Part shown: positions 16,477-23,605 of the stretch, piece by piece
Layout of the letters: every line of letters begins with the position of its first letter
Numbering within the stretch: position 1 is the first letter of the stretch
From: Armatimonadota bacterium
Lineage (GTDB): Bacteria; Armatimonadota; Zipacnadia; UBA1398; JAKPQA01
NCBI GenBank assembly: GCA_029547025.1
Contig: JAKPQA010000124.1
Coordinates: 1-64,000, forward strand
Length of the DNA: 64,000 nucleotides
Direction of reading: 5' to 3'
The notes under the pieces: model-generated
Databases searched by the model: none
Told to the model about the DNA's origin: nothing
What the model saw: the letters and a program-made list of their open reading frames with translations, nothing else
Translations under genes and position numbers: made by a program

Positions 16477-16601
16477 GCCTGAGTGCCTCGCTCCCGGCGA
16501 GACGCGGGTATGAGGCTGCCCGAATGAGGGACGCTGGGCGGCCGGGGGCCACTGGCTCGCTGAGCGGCGACGCGGGAACCGGAACGAGGGGGATCCTGTT
16601 C

Positions 16602-17222
16602 ATGGCATTCGAGGCCGAGGGCATCACCGAACTGCAGCTGGACGCGCTGCGTGAGGTGGGCAACATCGGAGCGGGCCACGCCGCAACCGCGCTGGCGGAC
16701 CTGCTCGGTGAGGAGATCGACATCACCGTGCCCACTGCGGGGCTCCGCCGGACAGAGGAAATCGCGGCCAGCCCGGAGGCCGCGGAGGCGATGGTGGTCG
16801 GAGTCCTGTTCATCGTCGAGGGCGATGCGGGCGGTGTCATCGTCTATGTGTTCTCCGAGGCGGACGCGCGCTTCTTGTCTGACCGGCTCATGGGGCTCGA
16901 ACCGGGCACGACACAGCAGATCGACGAGATGGGATGCTCGATGCTTGGCGAAGTCGGGAATATCCTGTCGGGGTCATTCGTGACGGCACTGGCGGAGTTC
17001 ACGCACTTGGATTTCGGCCTCTCGCCACCCAACGTGGCCGTGGACACGCTCGCGACGATCCTCAGTGAGATCACGGTGACGGCCGAGGCGCTTGGTGAGC
17101 TGTCGCTGGAACTCGATACGCACTTTGTCCAGCAGAGCGGGCAGTTGGAGGGCCGATTCTACTATCTGATGGATCGGGACAGCCTGGGCGCCATTCTGGG
17201 CGCGCTCGGCATGGCGGGGTAG
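16602..17222 (+). CDS. cheC: CheY-P phosphatase CheC
   Basis: CheC dephosphorylates CheY-P and is stimulated by CheD. The protein has 206 residues, the usual length, from ATG 16602; GAGGGGG lies about 10 bases upstream. Both copies of the active-site signature [D/S]-x3-E-x2-N-x22-P are intact: Asp14/Glu18/Asn21/Pro44 and Ser113/Glu117/Asn120/Pro143. Two active centres are characteristic of CheC as opposed to CheX. cheD follows after nine bases, as in Bacillus and Thermotoga-like gene orders, so the two are almost certainly cotranscribed and work together. Confidence 0.95.
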   Translation: MAFEAEGITELQLDALREVGNIGAGHAATALADLLGEEIDITVPTAGLRRTEEIAASPEAAEAMVVGVLFIVEGDAGGVIVYVFSEADARFLSDRLMGLEPGTTQQIDEMGCSMLGEVGNILSGSFVTALAEFTHLDFGLSPPNVAVDTLATILSEITVTAEALGELSLELDTHFVQQSGQLEGRFYYLMDRDSLGAILGALGMAG

Positions 17223-17231
17223 GAGGAGCTC

Positions 17232-17738
17232 GTGGGGCTGTCGATACCGGTGGGGATGGCCGAGGTGAAGGCGAGCAAGACGGCGGACGACTCGCTGTCG
17301 GCGCTGGGTCTGGGGTCCTGTATCGGGGTGTGCGTGTATGACCCCCGGGCGCGTGTCGCCGGGCTGGCGCACGTGATGCTGCCCGATAGCGCGGTCATCC
17401 GTGCGACGGATCGCGTGGTTGAGGGCAAGTTCGCGGACACTGCGGTGCCAGCTCTGGTTCAGCGGGTGGAGTCGCTGGGGGCTCGGCGTGCAGACCTTCG
17501 TGCCGCGATCGCGGGCGGCGCCCAGGTGTTTTCCTTCGCCACGAGCAGCCCCGCGCTGGCCATCGGCAGCCGCAATGCCGAGGCGGTTGTCGCGGCACTC
17601 AAGACGGCGGGGATCCCTCTGCTGGCTCAGGACTGCGGCGGCACCGTGGGGCGGACGGTGACACTGGATGTCGCTTCGGGGCTGGTTCGCGTGCGCGTCG
17701 TGGGTGGCGAGCCCGTGGATCTGTACCGGCTCGGGTAG
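17232..17738 (+). CDS. cheD: chemoreceptor glutamine deamidase CheD
   Basis: CheD deamidates glutamines on chemoreceptors and binds CheC. The protein has 168 residues from GTG 17232, which follows AGGAGGAGC. The catalytic Cys30 lies in LGLGSCIGVCVYD and the catalytic His47 in GLAHVMLP, with the usual spacing; the conserved Ala-Gly-Gly-Ala-Gln segment (AAIAGGAQVF) is at about 89-98. Complete and canonical. No receptor gene is in the window, so its substrates are encoded elsewhere. Confidence 0.95.
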   Translation: MGLSIPVGMAEVKASKTADDSLSALGLGSCIGVCVYDPRARVAGLAHVMLPDSAVIRATDRVVEGKFADTAVPALVQRVESLGARRADLRAAIAGGAQVFSFATSSPALAIGSRNAEAVVAALKTAGIPLLAQDCGGTVGRTVTLDVASGLVRVRVVGGEPVDLYRLG

Positions 17739-17814
17739 TCGCCGGGCGGCGGTGGGCCGCAGACGCCGCGTGCGTCAAGGTCACGGGGATGTTGGTGGAA
17801 GGGGGTTGGTCAGC

Positions 17815-18255
17815 ATGCAGGGCGCCAGACTACGGAGCTGCAAACAGTGCGGGCGACCGTTCCGCATGGTTCGCGAGCCGTTCTGTGTGGACTGCCTCAA
17901 GCTACAGGATGAGGAGTTCGCCCGTATCACGCGCTATCTGCGCGACAACCCAAAGAGTGGCACGCAGGAGATCAGCGAAGCGACGGGAGTCTCGGTCGGC
18001 CAGATACTGTACTTCTTGAGAAGTGGCCGCCTGGACACGGTGAGTTTTCCGATGGACGTGACGCTCAACTGCGAGATCTGCGGCAAGCCCATCAAGTCAG
18101 GGAGTCGCTGCGGGCCGTGCGCAGAAAAACTGGCGAATGAGTTTCGGAAGGCCCGGAGCGCTGAGGCGGGGAGGTCCGTCGAACCGAAGCACGAGGAGAC
18201 GGCGGCGAAGGAACGCACCCCCGACTCATACATCACATACCACCGAGACAAGTAG
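17815..18255 (+). CDS. YvyF-like flagellar operon zinc protein
   Basis: The protein has 146 residues from ATG 17815, behind GGAAGGGGG. The N-terminal zinc ribbon uses Cys9, Cys12, Cys24 and Cys27. The middle (about 36-73) is a winged or MerR-like helix-turn-helix (GTQEISEATGVSVGQILYFL). A second Cys cluster follows: Cys86, Cys89, Cys99, Cys102. This layout matches the flagellar operon protein family of YvyF (TIGR03826), which in Firmicutes sits next to flgM/flgN. Its role is thought to be regulatory; DNA binding is an inference from the helix-turn-helix. The acidic/basic C-terminus is not conserved. Confidence 0.85.
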   Translation: MQGARLRSCKQCGRPFRMVREPFCVDCLKLQDEEFARITRYLRDNPKSGTQEISEATGVSVGQILYFLRSGRLDTVSFPMDVTLNCEICGKPIKSGSRCGPCAEKLANEFRKARSAEAGRSVEPKHEETAAKERTPDSYITYHRDK

Positions 18256-18268
18256 AGGCGGCCCGACC

Positions 18269-19168
18269 GTGCAGAGGATGGGTACTACGAGCCCAACTCC
18301 AGACGAGATCGTGCAGCGCGTCCGTGACCTGCCTGCGATGCCGCTTGTGGTGACCCAGGTGCTGCGAGCCACGCGCGATCCAGACAGCTCGGTGGCCGAC
18401 GTCGCTCAGATACTGGGCACGGACCAGGGGCTGACCGCCCGGGTGCTGCGGCTGGCGAACTCGGCGCTCTTCGGCTTCCCGCGTCGTGTGGCCACACTGA
18501 CCGACGCGGTAGTCCTGCTTGGGTTCAGCACCCTGCGCAGCCTGGTCCTCGCCGGAACTGCCTTCGGGCTCCTCAACCGTGCCGTGAGCGGGTACTCGCT
18601 CGACAAAGGCGCGCTGTGGCGCCACTCCATGGGTGCCGGCGTGGCGGCTCGCCTTGTGTGCCAGCGCCAGCGGCTGCGCCGCCTCACCGAGGAGGCCTTT
18701 GTGGCCGGTGTGCTGCATGACATGGGCAAGCTGGTCCTCGACACCTATGTCCGTGAGCAGTTCAGCCAGATCATCCAGCGGGTCGAGGAGAACCGCGAGC
18801 CCTTCATGGCGGCCGAGCGTGCCATCCTCGGCTATGACCACGCTCAACTCGGCGCCATGGCCGCCGAGACCTGGGCCCTCCCCGCAGACTTGTGTGAGGC
18901 CATCCGACTACACCACGAGCCGCCGCCATGGTCCGAGCCCCGCCTGTTCCACGTGGTGCATGTGGCGGATGTGATCGCGCTGTCGCTCGGGATGGGGCTC
19001 GGGAGCGATGGCCTCAACTACGCCGTCGATTCGGGCGCCATGGAGACGCTGGGGCTTTCGGGCGCCGATGTGGAGGAACTGATTTCGCAGATGCCAGACG
19101 CCCTGACTGACATCGATACGTTCCTGGGCGAGGATGGCGGGGCCGCCGGTGGGGGCGGTGCCGCGTGA
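18269..19168 (+). CDS. HDOD-domain signalling protein
   Basis: The protein has 299 residues. GTG 18269 is preferred because AGAGGCGG sits at the right distance; ATG 18278 is an in-frame alternative. The HDOD domain (about 12-215) includes LPAMPLVVTQVL and the LARVLRLANS-type helix. Unlike many HDOD proteins it keeps HD-domain residues: His119 in WRHS and His150-Asp151 in LHDMGKL. It could therefore retain metal-dependent phosphodiesterase activity, though the motif set looks incomplete. HDOD proteins usually take part in cyclic-di-GMP or flagellar signalling. cheB starts within its last four bases, so the two are translationally coupled. Confidence 0.9.
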   Translation: MQRMGTTSPTPDEIVQRVRDLPAMPLVVTQVLRATRDPDSSVADVAQILGTDQGLTARVLRLANSALFGFPRRVATLTDAVVLLGFSTLRSLVLAGTAFGLLNRAVSGYSLDKGALWRHSMGAGVAARLVCQRQRLRRLTEEAFVAGVLHDMGKLVLDTYVREQFSQIIQRVEENREPFMAAERAILGYDHAQLGAMAAETWALPADLCEAIRLHHEPPPWSEPRLFHVVHVADVIALSLGMGLGSDGLNYAVDSGAMETLGLSGADVEELISQMPDALTDIDTFLGEDGGAAGGGGAA

Positions 19169-20235
19169 CCCGGCGGACGCGCGTTCTCGTTGTCGATGAC
19201 TCGGCGTTCATGCGGAAGATGATCGCCGAGCTGCTGGGGGCTGAGCCCGATGTTGAGGTCGTCGGCTCCGCCCGTAATGGCGAGGAGGGCGTCGCGCTCA
19301 CCCAGTCCCTGCGCCCCGATGTGGTCACCCTGGACATCGAGATGCCCGTCATGGACGGGCTCACGGCTCTTCGGACCATCATGGCCAAGTGTGCGACTCC
19401 GGTGGTGATGCTGAGCAGCCTGACGGCCGACGGCGGCGACATCACCATGCGCGCCCTGCGTTACGGGGCGGCGGACTTCGTGCACAAGCCTTCAGGCGCG
19501 ATCTCGCTCGACATCGCCAAGGTGCGCGACGAGCTGGTCAGCAAGGTGCGCGCTGCCGCGACCGTCGATGTGCGGAGACTGGCGCCGTCCGTGCTGCCGG
19601 TCCCGGCCATGCCGGCGGCGGCTCCGGTGAGTCCCGAGGCGCCGCGCCGGGCTCCAACGGCCGGTCCGGCCGACCGGCTGGTGGCGATCGGGACATCCAC
19701 CGGAGGTCCGCGGGCACTGCAGGCCGTCGTTCCGTTCCTGCCGGCGGATCTGCCGGCAGGCGTTCTGATCGTGCAGCACATGCCACCCAAGTTCACCAAG
19801 TCGCTGGCCGACCGGCTCAATGCGGATTCGCAGATCGAAGTGCGCGAGGCCCAGCCGGGGGACACCGTCACCACGGGGGTTGCCCTTCTGGCGCCGGGCG
19901 ACTATCACATGCGGGTGACGGCTGATCGGCGGATTGAGCTCACGCAAGACCCGCCGCTCTGGGGTGTGCGGCCTGCAGTGGACGTCATGCTCGACTCGGC
20001 GGTGCGGCTGTTCGAGCGCCGGATGTTGGCCGTTGTGATGACCGGGATGGGGCGAGACGGACGCGACGGTTGCGTCCAGGTCCGGCAAGCGGGCGGACGC
20101 GTGGTTGCCGAACACGAGGAGACATGCGTGGTCTACGGGATGCCGCGCGCGGTGGTCGAGGCGGGGGTCGCCGACGAGGTGCTTCCCCTGCCCCAGATTG
20201 CCGCAGCGATCAGCCGGATTGCCGCGCGACTGTAA
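19165..20235 (+). CDS. cheB: chemotaxis methylesterase/deamidase CheB
   Basis: CheB removes methyl groups from chemoreceptor glutamates and resets receptor sensitivity. The protein has 356 residues. The receiver domain (about 5-125) has Asp11/Asp12, phospho-acceptor Asp57, and Lys108 in the VHKP turn. A linker leads to the catalytic domain, with the triad Ser178 in GTSTGG, His205 in QHMPP and Asp298 in MTGMGRDG. Complete and standard. Its start overlaps the HDOD stop (GTGA), and cheR follows after 32 bases. Confidence 0.97.
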   Translation: MTRRTRVLVVDDSAFMRKMIAELLGAEPDVEVVGSARNGEEGVALTQSLRPDVVTLDIEMPVMDGLTALRTIMAKCATPVVMLSSLTADGGDITMRALRYGAADFVHKPSGAISLDIAKVRDELVSKVRAAATVDVRRLAPSVLPVPAMPAAAPVSPEAPRRAPTAGPADRLVAIGTSTGGPRALQAVVPFLPADLPAGVLIVQHMPPKFTKSLADRLNADSQIEVREAQPGDTVTTGVALLAPGDYHMRVTADRRIELTQDPPLWGVRPAVDVMLDSAVRLFERRMLAVVMTGMGRDGRDGCVQVRQAGGRVVAEHEETCVVYGMPRAVVEAGVADEVLPLPQIAAAISRIAARL

Positions 20236-20267
20236 GGAATGCTCTGGGCCAGAGGAGGATCGGGTGC

Positions 20268-21152
20268 GTGGATCAGGACATCGAGGTTCTGGCGCGAACG
20301 ATCCGCCGCTTGACCGGAATCGAGATTGGTTATTATAAGCCCAATCAGCTGCAGCGCCGGCTGGGGAACATGATGGGCCGGGCGGGGGCCCGCACGTTCG
20401 CCGAGTACGCGCGAGTCCTCGAGACCGACCCCGACGCCCTGGCCTACTTCGTCGACAAGTTCACGATCAACGTCTCCGAACTGTTCCGCAACCCCGAGAA
20501 GTTTGAGCAGTTGCGCGACCACTTCCTCGCGCCCATGCTGAGGCGTTTCGGACGGCTCAGCATCTGGAGCGCAGGGTGCTCGATCGGGGCCGAGATCTAC
20601 TCGGTGGTCATGCTGATGGATCAGCTGGATCCCAGGGGGACGCACCGGTACCTGGCCACCGACATTGATGCGGCCGTGCTTGAGCGCGCGCGGAAGGGGC
20701 AGTACTGCGACCAGGATGTGCGGAACGTAGCGCCAGCACTCATGAGCCGCTACTTCACGCGGGAGGGCTCGACATGGCAGGTCTGTGACGCCATTCGCTC
20801 CCGGGTGCAGTTCCGGCGCCATGATCTGCTGCAGGATCGATTCGAGTCCGGGTTTCATCTGATTCTGTGCCGCAATGTGGTCATCTACTTCAATGACGAC
20901 GCGAAGTCCGTGCTCTACCGTAGGTTCTACGAGGCTTTGGTGCCTGGCGGGGCCCTGTTCGTAGGCGGGACCGAGCGGATCCCGGATGCGCGGGAAATCG
21001 GGTTCCAGACGACCATGCCATTCTTCTATGTCCGCCCCGATGGGCAACCGGGTAGCCGCGGGGCCGCCAGTCTGAACCAAGGCACGGGCTTGCCCGCCCG
21101 GGGCGCGGGGGTATCAGGGCCGAGCGAACGGCATCGACGGGGTACGCAGTAA
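20268..21152 (+). CDS. cheR: chemotaxis methyltransferase CheR
   Basis: CheR methylates chemoreceptor glutamates with SAM. The protein has 294 residues from GTG 20268; GAGGAGG lies nine bases upstream. The N-terminal helical domain (about 5-75) holds the receptor/SAM-binding segment with FTINVSELFRNP. The SAM-binding loop is SAGCSIGAE at 101-109 and CRNVVIYF lies at 201-208. The C-terminal 30 residues are Gly/Ser/Arg-rich and resemble the flexible tail seen in some CheR proteins, but no receptor-binding pentapeptide is evident. It forms the adaptation pair with cheB. Confidence 0.96.
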   Translation: MDQDIEVLARTIRRLTGIEIGYYKPNQLQRRLGNMMGRAGARTFAEYARVLETDPDALAYFVDKFTINVSELFRNPEKFEQLRDHFLAPMLRRFGRLSIWSAGCSIGAEIYSVVMLMDQLDPRGTHRYLATDIDAAVLERARKGQYCDQDVRNVAPALMSRYFTREGSTWQVCDAIRSRVQFRRHDLLQDRFESGFHLILCRNVVIYFNDDAKSVLYRRFYEALVPGGALFVGGTERIPDAREIGFQTTMPFFYVRPDGQPGSRGAASLNQGTGLPARGAGVSGPSERHRRGTQ

Positions 21153-21164
21153 GGGGGAACGGAC

Positions 21165-21527
21165 GTGGCACGTGTCATGATCGTGGACGATGCGATGTTC
21201 ATGAGGGTGACCCTCAAGAACATCCTCACCAAAGAGGGGCACGAGGTCGTCGCGGAGGCGCAGAATGGGGAAGAGGCCGTGGCCCGCTACGCGGAGACCA
21301 AGCCCGACGTCGTCACCATGGACATCACCATGCCCAAGATGGACGGCATCTCCGCAGTCAAGGCCATCATCGCCGAGCATCCCGAGGCCCGCATTGTGAT
21401 GTGCACTGCCATGGGGCAGAAGAACATGGTTATGGAAGCCATCCAAGCCGGTGCCAAGGACTTCATTGTGAAGCCTTTCCAGCCCGAGCGCGTCATCGAG
21501 GGCATCGCGAAGGTTGTCGGTGCCTAG
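21165..21527 (+). CDS. cheY: CheY-type response regulator
   Basis: The protein has 120 residues from GTG 21165, behind AAGGGGG. It is a single receiver domain with Asp8/Asp9, phospho-acceptor Asp53, Thr81 and Lys103 in VKPF. The segment VMCTAMGQKNMVMEAIQAGA (about 78-97) is the pattern of the CheY proteins of Firmicutes and Thermotogae that bind the flagellar switch through FliM/FliY. The phosphatases CheC and CheX are encoded nearby. The phosphate donor CheA is not in the window. Confidence 0.95.
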   Translation: MARVMIVDDAMFMRVTLKNILTKEGHEVVAEAQNGEEAVARYAETKPDVVTMDITMPKMDGISAVKAIIAEHPEARIVMCTAMGQKNMVMEAIQAGAKDFIVKPFQPERVIEGIAKVVGA

Positions 21528-21586
21528 AACGCCGGCGACAGGTTCTTGGTGGCCCTCAGAGGCGCGTCGACGGAAGGAACTGCGGC

Positions 21587-22054
21587 GTGAAAGTCGACTT
21601 TGTGAACCCATTTGTCGGGTCTGCTTTCTCGGTTCTCCAGATGGTCATCGGCGACTCACCCAAGCGGGGCGAGCTGGCCGCGCGCACCAAGCTCTTCAAG
21701 TCGCAGCCCGTCACCATCGTCATCGGTGTCGTGGGGGCTGTTCATGGCCAGGTCTTGTACGGCATGAGTCAGGAGACGGCCAGACGGCTCTCCGGAGCCA
21801 TGATTGGCCAGGAGGTGCCCGAGCTGGACGAGCTGGCCATCAGCGCTCTGGCCGAGCTGGGCAACATGATCACGGGCAATGCGGCCTCCCAGCTCGCCCA
21901 GGCGGGCTACATCGCCGATCTGGCCCCTCCTGCCGTGATCCAGGGCCCCGAGATCATCATCCTGACGGTCGAGGCCGCGCTCGTCGTGCCCGTGATCACG
22001 GGCTGCGGGACGATCGAGATCAACATCGCTCTGGAGGAAGCACGGCAGGCTTAG
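21587..22054 (+). CDS. cheX: CheY-P phosphatase CheX
   Basis: The protein has 155 residues from GTG 21587; GGAAGGA lies eight bases upstream. It carries a single phosphatase signature (ISALAELGNMITG at about 85-97, Glu90 and Asn93), as expected for CheX, a dimeric CheY-P phosphatase. The opening MKVDFVNPFVGSAFSVL is typical of the family. CheX, CheC and FliY all carry related phosphatase folds here. It follows cheY by 59 bases. Confidence 0.92.
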   Translation: MKVDFVNPFVGSAFSVLQMVIGDSPKRGELAARTKLFKSQPVTIVIGVVGAVHGQVLYGMSQETARRLSGAMIGQEVPELDELAISALAELGNMITGNAASQLAQAGYIADLAPPAVIQGPEIIILTVEAALVVPVITGCGTIEINIALEEARQA

Positions 22055-22079
22055 TCCAGCCAGGGATCGATCGGGGACG

Positions 22080-22889
22080 ATGATGACCGAGGACGAGGCG
22101 CGGCGAGTGCTGGGGGTGGGGCCCCGGGCCACGATTGACGAGCTTCGCGAGGCCCGGCGCCGCCTGCTTCTGAAGTACCATCCCGACCACAATCCCGGCC
22201 GACAAGCCTGGGCCGCCCGGGCGACTCGCGCGGTACTCGAGGCTTTCACGCGGCTGGCTGACCGTCCCGCGCCATTGCAGCCACCGCCAGATCCTTCGGC
22301 CCCTCGGGCCGCTCAGGTGGAACGCCTCCGCGAGTTCCTGGACCGTCAGCGCGCAGCCCGCAAGGCTCCTGGGTCTGGCGACGCCCGCGCGAGCGCGGCG
22401 CCACGCTCGGTCACGACTGCCCCTCCACGCCGCCAGACCACCCTGGCGACGACGCCGGAAGTGCCCTTCGTGCTGTTCTCGGTGGACAGCCGAGTGTTCG
22501 CGCTTCCCGTGAGCAGTGTGGTGGAGGTGGTCCGGGCGGATGTCGAGTGTTTCAGCGACGAGTCGCGGCCAGCTCGCACACACCCCTTTGTCGTGGGCCG
22601 GATGAGGTTCCGCGACGCGCAAATCCCCGTCGTCGATCTCTCCGGAGCGTTGGGCCTCGAGGCTTCTGGCTCGGCATGCGACCACGTTGTCGTGGTCGAC
22701 TGGCGGTCGGCTCGCCTCGGTGTGGCCGTGTCGAGGGTGCACGAGGTGACTCGGGTGCGCCCTTCGGCCATCGAGCCTCCTCCTCCCGAGCTGGCGCAGA
22801 TGCGCGGCTGCGTACGGGGCGTGTTCGCCCGCGGTACAGAGACCGTCTACGTGCCTCACCTCGAAGCTCTCGTGGCCCTCGGTGCCTGA
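22080..22889 (+). CDS. J-domain/CheW fusion protein
   Basis: The 269-residue protein starts at ATG 22080 behind GGGG. Residues 1 to about 62 form a J domain with the diagnostic His34-Pro35-Asp36 (YHPDHNPG), the motif that activates DnaK-type chaperones. A Pro/Ala/Arg-rich linker spans about 63-125. Residues about 130-265 form a CheW domain: FVLFSVDSRVFALPVSSVVEV, the VVGRMRFRDAQIPVVDLSG strand pair, then VVVVDWRSARLGVAVSRVHEV. CheW couples CheA to receptors. A free CheW is not in the window, so this could be the coupling protein, possibly under chaperone control. It ends the chemotaxis block 22 bases before a candidate promoter. Domain calls are firm; the combined function is unknown. Confidence 0.9.
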   Translation: MMTEDEARRVLGVGPRATIDELREARRRLLLKYHPDHNPGRQAWAARATRAVLEAFTRLADRPAPLQPPPDPSAPRAAQVERLREFLDRQRAARKAPGSGDARASAAPRSVTTAPPRRQTTLATTPEVPFVLFSVDSRVFALPVSSVVEVVRADVECFSDESRPARTHPFVVGRMRFRDAQIPVVDLSGALGLEASGSACDHVVVVDWRSARLGVAVSRVHEVTRVRPSAIEPPPPELAQMRGCVRGVFARGTETVYVPHLEALVALGA

Positions 22890-22952: not shown

Positions 22953-23125
22953 TCGTGCGAGAGTCGCACGAAGGGGAGTGGAGTCGGGAGCGATACGGAG
23001 TCCAGGACAGAGCGTGGGTTGTGCGCCGGACTGCTAGGCAGAGGCCACCCGCACCGCTGACTGACTGATGCGGTGCCTCCGGAATACACGCTCTCCTCGC
23101 GCTGATGCTGGCGTCTGCTGCCAGC
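22953..23125 (+). promoter_or_regulatory. structured 5' leader of flgB
   Basis: The leader contains a perfect 8-bp hairpin with a three-base loop (22953-22960 pairing with 22964-22971), a 7-bp hairpin (23051-23057 pairing with 23070-23076, 12-base loop) and a 6-bp hairpin (23107-23112 pairing with 23120-23125). It does not clearly match a riboswitch class I know. The bases between it and the start (23126-23215) show nothing I recognise. Confidence 0.4.
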
Positions 23126-23215
23126 GATGCCCTCTGGGCTCCTCGATCGCCCGCATCCCTCCCCTGGCGCACTGGCCGCGCAGTTCCTGTCGGGCTCCGT
23201 TGCCGACGGGTGTGC

Positions 23216-23605
23216 ATGGGATCGGGGGTGACGCCGGTGGGTTGGCTCTTCGATGATGTGCCGAACCGTGTGCTGAAGCTCGGTATGGATGTGGCGGCTC
23301 TCAGGCATCAGGTCATCGCCAACAACATCGCCAATGTCGACACGCCCTACTTCAAGGCCTCGGATGTGTCGTTCGAGGAGCAGTTGCGCGCCGCTCTGAG
23401 CAGCGGCGGCGCGGGCGCTGCCGAGCTGGCCGAGGCGGGTCCCGTGGTGTACCGTGTGCCTGCGACGCGGTTCCGGATCGACGGCAACACGGTGGACATC
23501 GACTGGGAGACCGTGAAGCTGAGCCAGAACACGGGGCGTTACAACGCCCAAGCCGCAGTGCTGCGCCGCCGTCTGGCCATGTGGCGGCGGGTGGCCGGGG
23601 AGTAG
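23216..23605 (+). CDS. flgB: flagellar proximal rod protein FlgB
   Basis: FlgB is a rod component above the MS ring. The protein has 129 residues, the usual size. It shows the rod/hook family N-terminal motif at about 25-45 (HQVIANNIANVDTPYFK), where ANNIANxxTPG/YK is diagnostic. The start is uncertain: ATG 23216 and GTG 23228 are both in frame and neither has a strong ribosome-binding site, which fits regulation by the long leader. flgC follows after 11 bases. Confidence 0.93.
   Translation: MGSGVTPVGWLFDDVPNRVLKLGMDVAALRHQVIANNIANVDTPYFKASDVSFEEQLRAALSSGGAGAAELAEAGPVVYRVPATRFRIDGNTVDIDWETVKLSQNTGRYNAQAAVLRRRLAMWRRVAGE

Follow-up and report, generated by a model that had tools for sequence, protein, structure and literature searches.

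J-domain proteins are Hsp70-targeting factors that normally act catalytically and in small amounts, and a J domain can be a late addition that gives chaperone power to an existing process (PMC8215388). In class C J proteins, such as E. coli DjlA and HscB, a J domain with its His-Pro-Asp (HPD) motif is combined with an unrelated targeting domain (PMC8215388). The residues R22, K26, R27, K48 and K51 of DnaJ are basic and position DnaJ on DnaK (PMC8215388). Chemotaxis proteins are already linked to this machinery in E. coli: without the DnaK co-chaperones DnaJ/CbpA, neither CheA nor FliN interacts with HtpG, and DnaK has interaction partners among the motor components (PMC3708813). Genetic work in Myxococcus places StkA, a protein resembling Hsp70, between T4P and the chemosensory Dif proteins (PMC4319316).

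We describe a gene, which we call J-CheW, in a window of 64,000 nucleotides from an Armatimonadota genome (assembly GCA_029547025.1, contig JAKPQA010000124.1). The protein combines two known kinds, a class C J protein and a CheW with an extra domain. Like the class C proteins it has a J domain with an HPD motif and an unrelated targeting domain, but its J domain is shorter and lacks helix IV. It shares with CheW (Thermotoga maritima 2ch4, E. coli) a complete CheW fold and the Gly and Arg in and near the NLRG motif, and differs in its additional N-terminal J domain and linker, in the divergence of that motif, and in having two canonical CheWs beside it. CheV, too, occurs alongside standalone CheW and carries another functional domain besides CheW. 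That domain, however, is a receiver, which J-CheW does not have, and the J domain would pass its output to DnaK rather than act as a phosphorylation switch. CheWS of Treponema denticola is another CheW with an extra domain and is proposed to sit in CheA-CheW rings; its extra domain is C-terminal, CheR-like and senses SAM (PMC10653840), whereas that of J-CheW is an N-terminal J domain.

The first-pass annotation knew of no characterized protein with a J domain and a CheW domain, and our literature search for DnaJ or J-domain with CheW agrees, as it found no paper on the pairing and most of the matches were "chew" in other senses. One paper puts the number of CheW architectures in Pfam v35 that are undescribed at 30 (PMC10653840), and J-CheW may be one of these already.

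The J-CheW gene and its domains

J-CheW is a single uninterrupted frame of 269 amino acids at 22080–22889 on the forward strand, with zero internal stops in its translation. The J domain, linker and CheW domain therefore do lie in one continuous frame, as the first-pass annotation had proposed, and a frame artefact is excluded. Chance as the source of the ORF is rejected by profile E-values of 1e-21 and 6e-8. The gene starts 25 nt past the stop of cheX. A second ATG at 22083 (M2) lines up with the position at which the single ortholog begins, and a Shine-Dalgarno-like GGGGA, a possible ribosome-binding site, lies upstream at 22073–22077 (+), so either ATG may serve as the start. Codon-position GC of both the J part and the CheW part is similar to that of the flanking che genes.

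DnaJ and CheW are the sole Pfam matches in the protein, and each half also scores alone. The DnaJ profile PF00226 matches residues 10–61 (22107–22262, +) with 33.2 bits (E 5.8e-8, cut-off 27.8). An intact HPD motif had been noted at residues 34–36, and it is there, encoded by CAT CCC GAC at 22179–22187 (+) inside the PF00226 match. We built an AF2 model on two sequences (mean pLDDT 66.9), in which J-domain helices I–III span residues 4–11, 19–33 and 39–60. Foldseek superposes the model on the J domain of DnaK-bound DnaJ (5nro_B) with an rmsd of 1.3 Å over 55 columns. The canonical helix IV is missing. As in class C J proteins, neither a G/F region nor a Zn finger nor the C-terminal domains of DnaJ turned up in the Pfam search. 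Four of the five basic DnaK-contact residues of E. coli DnaJ align with arginines in J-CheW (R23, R27, R28 and R50), and the residue at the K51 position is Leu. Given a PF00226 score above the cut-off, an intact HPD and a fold match to 5nro_B, J-CheW is best read from its sequence as a class C J-domain protein.

The stretch between the two domains (about residues 62–126, 22263–22457, +) is of low complexity. The prediction of a disordered linker was correct for most of its length, where pLDDT ranges from 29 to 53 and is mostly below 50, save for one predicted helix at residues 77–94.

The CheW domain covers residues 130–265 (22467–22874, +). PF01584 matches it with 77.5 bits (E 9.9e-22, cut-off 23.5) over positions 2–134 of the 138 in the profile, and in the whole-genome search it scored 78.9 bits, so both halves match their own profiles above the Pfam cut-off. 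The CheW fold is complete in the AF2 model, with a Foldseek TM of 0.81 to CheA-bound CheW (2ch4_Y). The canonical NLRG motif reads RFRD in J-CheW and LYRQ in the ortholog, so that the N, the L and the final G are replaced, while in J-CheW the Arg of the motif and a Gly five residues upstream are kept. Because this motif is divergent, binding of J-CheW to CheA or receptors is not assured, and its degenerate sequence leaves room for a changed binding partner. Pfam searches of the protein found no receiver domain as in CheV, neither HATPase_c nor Hpt as in CheA, and no match to a CheR-like domain as in CheWS.

Operon context and the ortholog

The gene order in the window is cheC-cheD-Zn ribbon-HDOD-cheB-cheR-cheY-cheX-[J-CheW]-flgB, all on the same strand and inside a large flagellar cluster, and this places J-CheW at the end of the cheC-cheX block as originally described. 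All of the following are on the forward strand. The cheC gene (16524–17222) scores 153.4 bits with NF041093, under the cut-off of 250, and has a homolog at the same place in the ortholog's locus (L041). It is followed by cheD (17232–17738; PF03975, 107.9 bits) and by a YvyF-like flagellar-operon Zn-ribbon/HTH gene of uncertain start (17668–18255), which has sub-threshold Zn-ribbon matches only and again a homolog at the same place in L041. Then come an HDOD-domain gene, its start also uncertain (18137–19168; PF08668, 207.6 bits), cheB (19165–20235; PF01339, 214.9 bits), a cheR ORF whose true start is probably about 20250 (20070–21152; PF01739, 164.4 bits), and cheY (21165–21527; PF00072, 112.4 bits), which is 78% identical to the cheY of the ortholog's operon. 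Directly upstream of J-CheW is the cheX ORF (21401–22054, probable start about 21590; PF13690, 62.1 bits). The first gene of the downstream flagellar block is a flgB-like ORF (23105–23605, start uncertain), which we recognized by reading the translation by eye.

In the two chemotactic genomes of the order, an extra cheD lies directly beside an HDOD gene at three loci away from the main che operon (L098:2612–4006, L099:5–1124 and L100:2830–4159, all on the reverse strand), so the CheD-HDOD pairing is a recurrent one.

The same fusion is present in a genome from a different family of the same order (G249; L041:9584–10312, 242 aa), and it is 34% identical over its length to J-CheW. Identity is 50% in the J domain and about 30% in the CheW domain. 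The HPD is kept, and the positions equivalent to R22, K26, R27 and K48 of DnaJ are basic here too. Scored alone, the J domain of this ortholog reaches 25.0 bits, just under the Pfam cut-off of 27.8. The linker is not conserved, being shorter and unrelated in G249. The order of genes in G249 is cheC-cheD-Zn ribbon-HDOD-cheB-cheR-cheY-[J-CheW]-HATPase-STAS-cheW-cheA, with only cheX missing from the shared stretch, and we saw no flagellar structural genes in the stretch examined around the fusion. With both architecture and gene order recovered in a related genome, we reject the idea that the fusion is confined to a single genome. CheB, CheR and CheD of the same two operons are 54–58% identical; the J-domain identity is near that level, which suggests selection on the J part of about the same strength as on the core che genes and argues for a function.

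Inside the G249 operon, between J-CheW and cheW-cheA, an anti-sigma-type HATPase and a STAS gene form an RsbW/RsbV-like pair (L041:10374–11229, +).

Distribution and origin

We searched 291 genomes of the phylum with profiles, scoring in most of them the best 8 candidate places so that a diverged copy could escape, and found no J-CheW beyond our genome and G249. These two are the only chemotactic members of an order of three genomes. The third (G248) has no CheW, no chemoreceptor and no J-CheW. CheW is found in 16 of the 46 genomes of the class, and J-CheW in none outside the order. A peptide-pattern scan of GTDB contigs, which needs near-exact peptide matches and is therefore weak, returned only a Pseudomonas CheW homolog, and a plasmid search returned one partial CheW match.

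The two fused CheW domains form one clade with long branches in a tree of 51 CheW domains (support 99/97). This is compatible with a single fusion event, and one event is enough. In G276, which belongs to a different family of the class, a fliG-type gene comes right after cheB-cheR-cheY-cheX. J-CheW therefore appears to have been inserted into an older operon within this order's lineage.

With a profile of the J part, four proteins of the order reach 117–125 bits, and nothing else in the class exceeds 46 bits. These four comprise the two J-CheWs and a pair of proteins in which the J domain is joined to a PQQ/ACSF4-type beta-propeller. This points to a short, order-specific J domain that has been joined to two unrelated partners. 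The HPD and the basic helix II contact positions are kept in all four members, across both partner types. The J-domain tree is too short to order the J-CheW and J-propeller forms in time, and none of its branches is supported.

The propeller proteins are encoded at L043:1495–2781 (−) in G249 (428 aa) and, as a short form, at L042:9476–10009 (−) in G248 (177 aa), and in both genomes the gene adjoins an amidohydrolase-like gene. We also came across two other J-domain combinations. In our genome, a single protein has a J domain, a zinc ribbon and an FHA domain (L048:9149–9796, −), and its gene is beside a von Willebrand-type gene. Elsewhere in the phylum, G232 encodes a 235-aa protein (L101:7165–7872, −) with a related short J domain and, after it, a possible transmembrane stretch.

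Chemotaxis and chaperone genes in the genome

Our profile search found four CheW domains in the genome, and J-CheW is the only one in the window, as the first reading of the DNA had said. The single CheA is on contig C123 with its CheW, a further CheW is on C154, and there are six chemoreceptor matches. The presence of two standalone CheWs besides J-CheW makes it an accessory adaptor, and we reject it as the cell's only coupling protein.

On the chaperone side, dnaK is on C153 and is followed by the canonical dnaJ, and there are four other J proteins in the genome. A search that recognizes the HtpG (Hsp90) of E. coli and B. subtilis found none in G000, G248 or G249, the three genomes of the order. 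We therefore reject an HtpG hand-off as in E. coli, and a dedicated J/DnaK route to CheA would need to work without HtpG.

Possible roles of J-CheW

The sequences show the domain identities of J-CheW, the HPD and the charge pattern of its contact helix, che-operon conservation in two families and a common clade for the two fused CheW domains. Since the HPD and four of five basic contact positions are kept and dnaK is present, we believe that recruitment of DnaK to the receptor/CheA array is the most reasonable inference. J-CheW would then be an array-targeted class C J-domain protein, a reading in which we have about even confidence. Its CheW domain would dock in the CheA/receptor array, and the flexible linker would present the J domain to DnaK. 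The J domain would activate the ATPase of the housekeeping DnaK on site, and DnaK might then assist there in the folding, assembly or remodeling of CheA, receptors or CheW. The E. coli and Myxococcus precedents make such an array chaperone plausible by analogy. Hsp40-Hsp70 work on the chemotaxis kinase is common to E. coli and to our proposal for J-CheW, but E. coli uses the general DnaJ/CbpA together with HtpG (PMC3708813), whereas J-CheW has the J domain built into the adaptor in an order where HtpG was not found.

The same anatomy would also fit a sensor. J-CheW could be a CheV-like accessory adaptor in the array in which DnaK on the J domain, depending on whether DnaK is free or busy with misfolded proteins, alters CheA activity; we think this unlikely, though worth keeping in mind. 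Sensor domains fused to CheW exist, as in CheWS, CheW-CZB and CheV (PMC10653840), StkA and the Dif system of Myxococcus offer a precedent (PMC4319316), and the canonical CheWs in the genome leave J-CheW free to modulate. Against this, J proteins normally work catalytically and at low abundance (PMC8215388), and the sequence holds no feature that tells a sensory from an assembly role. Heat or folding stress would, on this account, reach swimming behavior through J-CheW and the state of DnaK, which we hold to be improbable to the same degree. We give a similarly low probability to a two-way coupling, in which DnaK brought to the array by J-CheW would keep CheA and receptors assembled while DnaK availability tuned the kinase output.

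Somewhat less probable again is a J domain that has lost its DnaK function and gives a divergent CheW a module for protein-protein docking or spacing. Hsp70 function has been lost in some J-like domains, and this one lacks helix IV and K51 and belongs to a short, order-specific subfamily. However, it is difficult to reconcile a spacer with an HPD and helix II basic contacts that persist in all four subfamily members and on two fusion partners, or with J conservation near that of the core che proteins.

We doubt even more that J-CheW brings DnaK to the flagellar motor, switch or export apparatus (the side of CheC, CheX and FliM) rather than to the receptor array. The gene does have cheX on one side and flgB on the other, within a large flagellar cluster, and in E. 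coli DnaK has a role in the assembly of FliN (PMC3708813). However, CheW domains are known for binding CheA and receptors, and HATPase-STAS-cheW-cheA come after the gene in G249. A switch target is less supported because the G249 gene accompanies cheB-cheR-cheY and cheW-cheA in a stretch where we saw no flagellar structural genes.

Finally, the window comes from an assembly of 369 contigs, but an artefact by misassembly, frameshift or chance has almost no probability left, because an independent genome, from another family, repeats the full-length architecture at the matching place in the operon.

Implications

What is known of a direct Hsp70 role in building or remodeling chemoreceptor arrays comes mainly from FRET work in E. 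coli, with general-purpose J proteins. A J domain fused to an array adaptor is a genetic tie between the chaperone and chemotaxis systems, and it puts the J domain among the few known fusion partners of CheW. J-CheW looks like a real, undescribed device for bringing a chaperone to a bacterial receptor array, and it lets the question of Hsp70 at the array be tested directly with one small protein.
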